Assembly: GCF_024437655.1 (NCBI RefSeq)
Contig: NZ_JANBVF010000025.1
Span: 1 to 64,000, forward strand
Length of the DNA stretch: 64,000 bases
Direction of reading: 5' to 3'
Origin: Chitinolyticbacter albus
GTDB lineage: Bacteria; Pseudomonadota; Gammaproteobacteria; Burkholderiales; Chitinibacteraceae
Shown: positions 36,456 to 39,005 of the stretch, piece by piece
Numbering within the stretch: position 1 is the stretch's first letter
Layout: the number at the start of each line of letters is the position of its first letter
The notes under the pieces: model-generated
The model's input: only the letters and a program-made list of their open reading frames with translations
What the model was told of the DNA's origin: nothing
Databases searched by the model: none
Program-made: the position numbers and the translations under genes

Positions 36456-37112
36456 ATGCACATCCGTAGCGGTATCACCGCCGCCGTTTTGGGTACTCTA
36501 GCTCCCGGCGCTGGGCACCTGTATCTAGGTCAGGCACGGCGTTTCATGTTGCCAGCGCTCACGTTTTTGATCGTGCTGCTGGCCCTCGGCGTTGCCGGGC
36601 AGCTGTCTCGCGTCCACGGCGCTACCATTTTTATCTGCATGGCGCTGTTCTTGCTGCTGTTTTCCATAGCGGATAGCCTGGTTCTAGGCTTGCGCCAAGG
36701 AAGGAACACAGCTCGCTGGTATGCAAGATGGTATGTGCTACTTGGCTGGCTAGTAGTCTCGTGGCTTTACGGTTACGTTCTGACCCATTACCGAGAAAGT
36801 CTGCTGGGATACAGCATGTTCAGGATGACCGCCTCAACCATGTCACCTACCATACTGCCCGGCGACCTGATGCTTGTGGATACAAGAAGCTTAAACCCTT
36901 CAACTACCGACATCGTCATTTTCGAAATCCCAGAACGCAGCGTTCAAGTTGCAGGAAGAGTCATCTCTACATCGATCCCCAACGCTTACACCGTGGCTAT
37001 GGACAGCAACCCGGATCTCCCCCTGCAAATCAGTACTACCCACCTCAGGGGCAAAGTCACCGCTGTGCTGTGGTCACCAACACGGCGCCAATTCGGGGCT
37101 TCAGTCGAGTGA
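36456..37112 (+). CDS. Signal-peptidase-I-like membrane protein lacking the Ser/Lys dyad
   Basis: A 218-residue protein. The first about 100 residues are hydrophobic helices with LAPGAGHLYLGQARRFM, a motif of small multi-spanning proteins. Then follows an S26 peptidase-like domain: MTASTMSPTILPGDLMLVDT (box B), TDIVIFEIP (box C), VAGRVIST (box D) and VAMDSNPDLPL (box E). In active signal peptidases box B has SGSM with the nucleophile Ser before Met, where this protein has Thr. Box D has a Lys before Arg, where this protein has Gly. It is therefore probably a non-proteolytic relative. It lies 12 bp after nadC and before the structured leader of the next gene. Confidence 0.75.
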   Translation: MHIRSGITAAVLGTLAPGAGHLYLGQARRFMLPALTFLIVLLALGVAGQLSRVHGATIFICMALFLLLFSIADSLVLGLRQGRNTARWYARWYVLLGWLVVSWLYGYVLTHYRESLLGYSMFRMTASTMSPTILPGDLMLVDTRSLNPSTTDIVIFEIPERSVQVAGRVISTSIPNAYTVAMDSNPDLPLQISTTHLRGKVTAVLWSPTRRQFGASVE

Positions 37113-37184
37113 GTCATCACGCTCACTTCGCTACGGGTAATCCCGCATAGCCGCCCTCACACGGCAGGGTGCACAGTCCAGACC

Positions 37185-37253
37185 ATGAAGACCGCAAACG
37201 CACCCCTGCCCCTCACGCTCCGCTCGGCGTTCTGGTACCGCTCCTATCTCTAG
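37185..37253 (+). CDS. Candidate leader peptide, 22 codons
   Basis: The short frame ATG to TAG encodes a peptide ending RSAFWYRSYL, with Phe-Trp-Tyr near the end. Its stop codon lies in the first hairpin of the leader, and the AGGAGG that follows lies in the same hairpin. This is the geometry of attenuation leaders, but the start codon has no strong ribosome-binding sequence, and only one Trp codon is present. Coding status is a guess. Confidence 0.35.
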   Translation: MKTANAPLPLTLRSAFWYRSYL

Positions 37254-37369
37254 GAGGCGGTCAGGGTAACGTTTGTACACACCATGCCGCCGATCCAGGC
37301 GGCATGATTGTTTCAGGGGTACAGCCCCTCGTCCCAGGATCGGTGGCCCACAACAAGGGACCGATCATC
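37185..37369 (+). promoter_or_regulatory. Structured 5' leader with four hairpins upstream of the TrpRS-like gene
   Basis: Four inverted repeats follow one another. The first, CCGCTCCTA/TAGGAGGCGG at 37238-37260, buries an AGGAGG. The second is a perfect 9-bp stem CATGCCGCC/GGCGGCATG at 37283-37306, followed by ATTGTTT. The third is AGGGG/CCCCT near 37315-37329. The fourth is GATCGGT/ACCGATC at 37338-37366, whose loop contains the AAGGGA ribosome-binding sequence of the downstream gene. The arrangement suggests translational or attenuation control. No known riboswitch class was recognised. Confidence 0.5.
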
Positions 37370-38206
37370 ATGCAAGCCACCATCCTCTGCGCCGAACGCC
37401 ACGCCGGCCCGCTCACGCTGGGTCATCTCGTCAGTACGCTGCGCCAGCGGCTGTTCTTCCAGGATCGCCACAACCAATACCTGCTGCTCGACGGTGAGAC
37501 CGACGAGCAGGTGCTCGATCTGGCTGCCGACCATCTGGCGGTCGGCATCGATCCGACTCGCGTCACGCTGCTCAATCGCCGCGCGGTGCCCGAGCTCGCC
37601 ACCCTGCAGCAGGCACTGCACTCCATCGCCCCGATCCAAGCCGGTGCCACCGCCACCTTGCTCGCCGGCCTGCAGCCGCAACTGGTTTCCGCCCACGCCG
37701 CTTCGACCGAAGCCCTGGCTGCCGCCAACCAGGTGATCCGCGCGGTCAACGCCCGAGCCGGACGCAAGCTCTTGGCCGAATCGCAGGCGCTGCTGCCCAC
37801 GCGCACGCCATTCGCCGCGCCGCGGGCTGCGCTCGACATCCCGTTCACTGCCGATGCCGACGCCATCGCCGCAGTGATCGCAGCGCTGCCATCGGCCACC
37901 CAGGTGGGATTGCCCGAGCGCGAGACCGACGGCCATCCGCTATTCCAGTTGCTCACCGTGTTCGAGCGCGACCTGCCCTTCGTCGACGATCTCAAGGCCA
38001 AGTTCCGTCGTGGTGGCTTGTCCGAGCGGGTGGTGAAAGCGCATCTGATCGACTGTGCCGAACGCATGCTGGCGCCGGTGCGCGAAACCCGCGCGGCACT
38101 GGCTGCGAATCGCGGCACGCTGCAGGCGGTGCTCGACGCCGGCAACGAGGCGGCGCGCGGCACGGTCGCCTCAGCGCTGGCCGAGGTACGCATCGCCCTT
38201 TCGTGA
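37370..38206 (+). CDS. Tryptophanyl-tRNA synthetase-like protein lacking KMSKS
   Basis: A 278-residue protein. The N-terminus ILCAERHAGPLTLGHLVSTL aligns with the first motif of bacterial TrpRS (TGxxPTGxLHLGHYxG), with Thr replacing the first His of the HIGH motif. The C-terminal third (DDLKAKFRRGGLSERVVKAH, APVRETRAALAANRGTLQAV) matches the TrpRS C-terminal helical end. The middle, which in TrpRS holds the RMTQFKDKS region, the AADIL tryptophan pocket and KMSKS, is shortened and rewritten; none of these motifs is visible. It cannot be expected to charge tRNA normally. The start ATG is preceded by AAGGGA inside a hairpin. True trpS is not in this window. Confidence 0.7.
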   Translation: MQATILCAERHAGPLTLGHLVSTLRQRLFFQDRHNQYLLLDGETDEQVLDLAADHLAVGIDPTRVTLLNRRAVPELATLQQALHSIAPIQAGATATLLAGLQPQLVSAHAASTEALAAANQVIRAVNARAGRKLLAESQALLPTRTPFAAPRAALDIPFTADADAIAAVIAALPSATQVGLPERETDGHPLFQLLTVFERDLPFVDDLKAKFRRGGLSERVVKAHLIDCAERMLAPVRETRAALAANRGTLQAVLDAGNEAARGTVASALAEVRIALS

Positions 38207-38222: not shown

Positions 38223-39005
38223 CTACCCCAGCGTTGCCGCCAGCCCCGGTAGCACCCGCAGCGTGTTGGCATAGGTCTGCTCGGCGATACTGGCCACAGC
38301 GCTGCCGCGTAATTCGGCCAGTACGCCGGCGATGCGCGGCAACTGCCCCGGCTCGTTGCGCCCCGGCGGCGAGCCCGCCAACCAGGCCGGCGCGATATCG
38401 GGCGCATCGGTTTCCAGCACGATGGACTCCAGCGGCAACTCGGCCGCAAGGCGGCGGATGCGTTGCGAACCGCTGTAGGTCATCGCGCCGCCGAAACCCA
38501 GCGCGAAACCGAGCTTGATGAATTCTTCGGCCTGCTGGCGGCTGCCGTTGAAGGCGTGCGCGATGCCGCCCTTCACCTGCCACTTGCGCAGGTATTTGAG
38601 CACCGGGTCCTGGCTGCGCCGGATGTGCACGATCACCGGCAGATCGAAATCACGCGCGAGCTTCAACTGCCCTTCGAACAGCGCGATCTGGCGCGCGGCA
38701 TCCAGGCCCGCTACATAGAAATCCAGGCCGATCTCGCCGACGGCCACCGGTGGTTCACGCTTCAGCCACTCGGCCAGCACATCGAGGTGCGCGTCGCGGT
38801 GCTCGGCGACGTAAATGGGGTGCAGGCCGAACGCGAGCGCCATGCCGTAGCGTTCACGCATCGCCAGTGTCTGATCGAAGGTGGCCACGGTGATGGCGGG
38901 CACCACCTGCTGAACGATACCGGCCGCGCGCGCGCGCGCCACCACCGCATCGCGGTCGGCATCGAACTCCGGGGCATCCAGGTGGCAGTGGCTGTCGATG
39001 AACAT
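38223..39005 (-). CDS. TatD family hydrolase, YjjV-like
   Basis: This 260-residue second TatD-family protein has FIDSHCHLDAPEFDADR, FGLHPIYVAEHRDAHLD, VGEIGLDFYVAG, PVIVHIRRSQDPVLKYLR, HAFNGSRQQAEEFIKLG and LETDAPDIAPAWL. The metal-binding residues are in place. The sequence differs from the tatD gene at 21 kb (FN-GS instead of FTES), fitting the YjjV branch. It probably acts as a metal-dependent nuclease or esterase. It is convergent with the TrpRS-like gene. Confidence 0.9.
   Translation of the reverse strand: MFIDSHCHLDAPEFDADRDAVVARARAAGIVQQVVPAITVATFDQTLAMRERYGMALAFGLHPIYVAEHRDAHLDVLAEWLKREPPVAVGEIGLDFYVAGLDAARQIALFEGQLKLARDFDLPVIVHIRRSQDPVLKYLRKWQVKGGIAHAFNGSRQQAEEFIKLGFALGFGGAMTYSGSQRIRRLAAELPLESIVLETDAPDIAPAWLAGSPPGRNEPGQLPRIAGVLAELRGSAVASIAEQTYANTLRVLPGLAATLG

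Follow-up and report, generated by a model that had tools for sequence, protein, structure and literature searches.

HisZ is a regulatory HisRS relative that acts on HisG. Auxiliary tryptophanyl-tRNA synthetase (TrpRS) genes with attenuators are known from Streptomyces (Seliverstov et al., 2005, PMC1262725), and the attenuator of such a gene was treated by Vecchione and Sello (2010), as cited in PMC4787780. TrpRS II and the indolmycin-resistant TrpRS1 are among the cases listed in the accessible part of a review of synthetase duplication (PMC9437257), which mentions no bacterial TrpRS that is catalytically dead and controlled by an amino acid.

Here, we describe a locus from Chitinolyticbacter albus at which a shortened relative of such a synthetase lies behind a putative tryptophan attenuator. 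The DNA analysed is a stretch of 64,000 nucleotides (contig NZ_JANBVF010000025.1), referred to as the window; the features of the locus are collected in the table.

Table. Features of the pseudo-synthetase locus and its leader (positions in the window)
Feature	Position	Strand	Details
Leader peptide ORF, MKTANAPLPLTLRSAFWYRSYL then stop, 22 codons	37185..37253	+	Trp codon at 37233-37235; stop 37251-37253
Attenuator hairpin 1:2	37237..37261	+	-13.4 kcal/mol
Segment 2, GGCGGT	37256-37261	+	alternative 2:3 pairing, -14.0 kcal/mol
Terminator hairpin 3:4	37283..37306	+	-18.0 kcal/mol; followed by ATTGTTTC
Segment 3, GCCGCCGATCC	37286..37296	+	complementary to segment 5
Segment 5, GGATCGGTGGC	37337..37347	+	pairs with segment 3 or, as 5:6, with the ribosome-binding-site region
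Hairpin 5:6	37338..37366	+	covers the likely Shine-Dalgarno AAGGGA (37355-37360); p=0.03
TrpRS-II-derived pseudo-synthetase	37370..38206	+	278 aa; stop counted in coordinates
N-terminal Rossmann part, residues 1-80	37370..37609	+	alignment, residue mapping, model; HIGH in degenerate form (PLTLGH, lacking the first His)
C-terminal helical domain, about residues 181-278	37910..38203	+	richest in paralogue-conserved residues
tatD, convergent neighbour	38223..39005	-	at 16/16 orthologous loci; positional marker, outside the claimed function

Relation of the pseudo-synthetase to TrpRS-II

The reading frame is unbroken over its 278 codons. Its best PDB sequence match is Deinococcus TrpRS II (E 4e-18), which is matched over residues 4-81 and 162-277, that is, at both ends, as the first-pass annotation had seen. 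That annotation had also put the protein some 60 residues short; it is about 54-68 aa shorter than family TrpRS-II (332-346 aa), and most of the deficit falls in CP1 and the KMSKS loop. Against the NCBIfam trpS models the ORF scores 37.4 bits, far below the cut-off of TIGR00233 (176.75 bits), and a Pfam search that included PF00579 returned no significant match.

Structure prediction yielded an AlphaFold model (pLDDT 86.8, pTM 0.82) whose top PDB structure matches are all TrpRS (Foldseek, 1yi8, E 7e-14); VIA comparison of the model with TrpRS gave a Z of 25.9 and 2.3 Å over 269 residues. Because the first alignment contained TrpRS rows, a control model was built from three paralogue rows only, with the TrpRS rows left out. 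The control (pLDDT 72.5, pTM 0.70) keeps the order of elements and ranks TrpRS II first (E 2.6e-11). The predicted fold is that of TrpRS end to end, even from paralogue rows alone; a model lacking a Rossmann fold or any relation to TrpRS, named beforehand as the outcome that would speak against the assignment, was not obtained.

Sixteen orthologues were found in six genera of one family of chitin degraders, Chitinibacteraceae, with Chitiniphilus shinanonensis and Jeongeupia naejangsanensis among the carriers. Neisseriales, the order to which NCBI assigns the family, had been proposed as the range to survey: the short form did not turn up in the remaining families of the order-level sample (200 genomes), nor in the class-level sample (274 genomes). 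Plasmid matches were TrpRS relatives at <60% identity, none of them close to the window ORF, and were discarded. In a quick tree with long branches, all 16 copies form one clade inside family TrpRS-II (SH-aLRT 99), nested with the TrpRS-II of Jeongeupia and Iodobacter. Tryptophanyl-tRNA synthetase II (TrpRS-II) has a paralogue in the 278-aa ORF, which by membership descends from TrpRS-II and is not a TrpRS.

The window genome has a TyrRS and, answering the question of a normal trpS elsewhere, a TrpRS-I (L002, 458 aa) with KMSKS; TrpRS-II was sought in this genome and not found. The same combination of the short copy with TrpRS-I only occurs in the genera g1 (that of the window), g4 and g6, and the genera g110, g113 and g114 retain both the short copy and TrpRS-II. 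In Jeongeupia, a moeB/thiF-like gene and tatD still flank a tail-to-tail pair made up of the short copy (+) and a full TrpRS-II (-). The simplest history would be a TrpRS-II duplication in the ancestor of part of Chitinibacteraceae, after which one duplicate retained the tryptophan attenuator while its active site decayed through loss of CP1, the HIGH histidine and KMSKS, followed in one branch by loss of the active TrpRS-II.

On the upstream side, four genera have a moeB-like gene; the window's genus has nadC there. In the window, a signal-peptidase-like gene (S26, weak; 36456-37112, +) separates nadC from the leader. In another genome of the same genus (G211), nadC stands directly upstream without it, so the S26-like gene was either inserted in the window or lost in G211. 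Elsewhere, the full-length TrpRS-II L012, L021, L029 and L074-L078 (genera g2, g3 and g5) have KMSRA, KMSRT or KMSRV in place of KMSKS; they form a separate clade and also have a Trp-codon leader ORF upstream. A guanidine-II riboswitch match (L002 728-770, -; 42.5 bits, above the gathering score) lies just downstream of TrpRS-I.

Loss of catalytic motifs

To map residues, E. coli TrpRS positions of Peng et al. (2025, PMC12135181) were transferred to the 16 orthologues. KMSKS is missing from every copy, and where all full-length TrpRS-II compared begin HIGH with His, the orthologues have Ser, Thr or Gly throughout. Since E. coli TrpRS also has Thr at this position, the HIGH change by itself is no proof of inactivity, and KMSKS is the stronger test. 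CP1, with the tryptophan pocket and the dimer interface, is largely deleted in all 16 orthologues; acceptor-arm Arg106 is deleted in each of them, and at the indole-contacting position Asp135 the window has Leu, with no more than four copies keeping Asp. The absence of KMSKS, of the first HIGH histidine and of the tryptophan pocket, claimed by the first-pass annotation from the single sequence, thus holds up in the comparison. A smaller alignment contains 166 positions that do not vary among eight TrpRS-II, and the paralogue has lost 62 of them.

Motif loss is established by this comparison. Without CP1, the HIGH histidine and KMSKS, the protein is expected neither to activate tryptophan nor to charge tRNA, and on present evidence the ORF product does not appear to be an active TrpRS. 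The former pocket has lost its residues, which makes direct tryptophan sensing there unlikely. The conserved residues that remain are concentrated in the C-terminal domain, where the pattern DDLKxKFRRGGL...HL..C...P.RExR is shared across paralogues.

The tryptophan leader

The gene does have a structured leader of its own, as had been proposed: about 185 bases of conserved sequence, common to several genera, lie upstream of it, and their fold stands out from shuffles (z -3.76). A Trp leader ORF is present in 16/16 orthologues, with Trp-Tyr-Arg or Trp-Trp-Tyr-Arg near the stop. When the order's paralogue and TrpRS-II genes are taken together, 46 of 57 have one, where dinucleotide shuffles predict 0.05. 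Most of the beta-proteobacterial TrpRS-II genes that were examined have the shared leader in front of them; no such leader was found at TrpRS-I of the window genome. A covariance model of the leader has one convincing site in this genome, the pseudo-synthetase gene, and matches the Iodobacter TrpRS-II leaders, which had been left out of the model (E about 1e-16 to 1e-24). At weaker sites in the same genome, G211 and G099, there is an ordinary terminator and no such Trp leader. When the window and 13 loci were compared with Rfam, no family matched the leader.

The alternative hairpins 1:2 and 2:3 and the terminator 3:4 of a Trp attenuator are recognizable by sequence and energy; 2:3 pairing is invariant among the 16 leaders, and the U run after the window terminator is modest. 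Segment 5 lies immediately ahead of the start codon and can form 11 pairs with segment 3. This 3:5 duplex exceeds shuffles in the window (p=0.003) and in all 16 paralogue leaders (p 0.003-0.010), and reaches p<=0.04 in 21 of 23 TrpRS-II leaders; the other two (L007 and L019) are void, a wrong terminator having been picked automatically. Across the 16 leaders, 95.9% of 3:5 cells are paired, compared to 17-47% when the segments are slid, and two pairs are altered on both sides in step. Covariation is moderate and not decisive because so few independent changes are available. The 5:6 pairing, supported in the window, is variable in other leaders. When the whole leader is folded, 3:4 together with 5:6 (-52.6 kcal/mol) is more stable than the fold with 3:5 forced (-45.2 kcal/mol); 3:5, if active, must therefore act during transcription.

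Taken together, the structured leader is, as judged from sequence comparison, a tryptophan attenuator inherited from TrpRS-II, and as such it would tell when the pseudo-synthetase is made. By analogy with established trp attenuation, when Trp-tRNA is short a ribosome would stall at the leader Trp codon, leaving segment 2 free to pair with segment 3, and in the absence of terminator 3:4 the gene would be transcribed. With ample Trp-tRNA, the ribosome would reach the leader stop codon and cover segment 2, and 3:4 would terminate transcription. Less certainly, 3:5 pairing would free the ribosome-binding site, so that segment 5 probably adds translational control, as its conserved and partly covarying pairing suggests.

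A sigma-70-like promoter was sought ahead of the window leader and not found. The block CGGGTAATCCCGCATAG (37134-37150, +), with the inverted repeat CGGG-TAAT-CCCG, is largely conserved before the leader ORF in g1, g4 and g6 and is a possible promoter or operator. A further short ORF, MNLIRAFSYYYLACPLAARWFAFI with its stop, lies with a terminator before a transporter gene in Iodobacter (L096, G229:C11:386184-386311). This transporter resembles the sodium-neurotransmitter-symporter family, and L096 is possibly another aromatic amino-acid attenuator.

Proposed role and comparison with known systems

In the window type, residues for ATP, tryptophan and canonical tRNA reading are gone, and a role in binding or regulation is accordingly the most likely one; a dead copy kept intact behind a Trp-shortage RNA switch has probably been reused in this way. 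We consider it probable that the gene encodes a non-catalytic binding or regulatory protein, derived from an attenuator-bearing TrpRS-II duplicate and made when Trp-tRNA is short. Its expression logic, production under Trp-tRNA shortage, appears well supported by comparison. Once made, the protein would act without catalysis, most likely through the conserved C-terminal helical domain, the anticodon-arm holder in TrpRS. Its partner may be an RNA, for instance tRNA-Trp, or a protein, perhaps TrpRS itself; an RNA of any kind is a possibility that we hold with some doubt.

A special form of this reading, in which the protein binds uncharged tRNA-Trp or an RNA mimic as a decoy, chaperone or translational regulator, seems unlikely to us. 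The copies of g110 and g114, five in all, retain the anticodon-reading pair Thr225-Asp226, four copies retain the G73-reading Glu155, and most keep the basic RRGGL loop together with Lys or Arg at the E. coli K274 position (13/16 orthologues). However, the Thr-Asp pair is deleted in eight window-type copies and replaced in Jeongeupia, and Glu155 is Ala in the window; the absence of both features speaks against a canonical reading of tRNA-Trp by window-type copies.

The protein could also be a pseudo-subunit that pairs with an active TrpRS and alters its activity in the manner of HisZ and HisG. The enzyme of which it is a paralogue is a homodimer, a tRNA bound by TrpRS spans two subunits (PMC12135181), and three of the genera that carry the paralogue still have TrpRS-II. 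Nevertheless, the segment largely deleted in 16/16 copies, CP1, is the one that builds the TrpRS dimer interface (PMC12135181), g1, g4 and g6 have been left with TrpRS-I only, and no partner gene adjoins in the window, all of which makes such a pairing improbable.

That the gene is decaying baggage behind an old attenuator might be suspected from its progressive motif loss, its long branches in the tree and a dN/dS of 0.46 between the window and Chitiniphilus, a value that indicates looser constraint than in an enzyme. Within genera, however, dN/dS of close pairs is 0.08-0.27 (0.02-0.07 for TrpRS-II), which indicates a protein that is maintained, under constraint looser than that of TrpRS-II. 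All 16 copies in the six genera are intact, with no broken copy seen among them, and the leader has been retained as well. The paralogue is thus, by these rates, under purifying selection; the first-pass annotation was right to call the gene intact and maintained, and simple decay is very improbable. Some other class-I-like catalysis (amino-acid adenylation, tRNA modification or cyclodipeptide synthesis) is performed by other synthetase paralogues (PMC9437257), but is scarcely credible here, and the activation and modification jobs of the first-pass annotation gain no support, since ATP-binding signatures (KMSKS gone, HIGH degenerate) are lost in all 16 orthologues and chemistry-requiring jobs are unsupported for that reason, the most conserved residues lying in the C-terminal domain and not on the active-site face.

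If the binding or regulatory reading is correct, the locus forms part of a stepwise series that begins with an active auxiliary synthetase and ends with a dead one, with control by amino-acid shortage unchanged and with intermediates that still hold tRNA-reading residues. Such a series makes the role of a catalysis-free synthetase scaffold testable. On comparison of sequences, the leader is apparently an undescribed Trp-responsive element that precedes most of the beta-proteobacterial TrpRS-II genes examined. We suggest more tentatively that the locus combines a regulator made from a synthetase without its three substrate sites with a five-segment leader joining attenuation to masking of the ribosome-binding site, an architecture that also occurs at active TrpRS-II genes across the beta-proteobacteria and lies outside Rfam.

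Among known systems, TrpRS-II (NCBIfam PRK12556; Deinococcus TrpRS II, PDB 1yi8 and 2a4m) shares with the pseudo-synthetase the full-length fold, the end sequences and the clade and, in its beta-proteobacterial members, the Trp leader; the pseudo-synthetase differs in its length and in having lost the Trp pocket, most of CP1 and both KMSKS and the HIGH histidine. The cyclodipeptide synthases (AlbC) have a Rossmann core related to TyrRS/TrpRS, but lack the C-terminal tRNA-binding domain, the part conserved here (PMC9437257). The Streptomyces trpS2 and trpRS1 attenuators likewise place a Trp leader peptide and a terminator before an auxiliary TrpRS gene, whereas the leader described here is beta-proteobacterial, has the additional 3:5 and 5:6 pairings predicted from sequence, and stands before a dead copy. 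HisZ resembles the pseudo-synthetase in being a synthetase paralogue that does no catalysis and is presumed to regulate; the pseudo-synthetase, however, belongs to class I, not class II, and has no HisG-like partner gene adjoining it.
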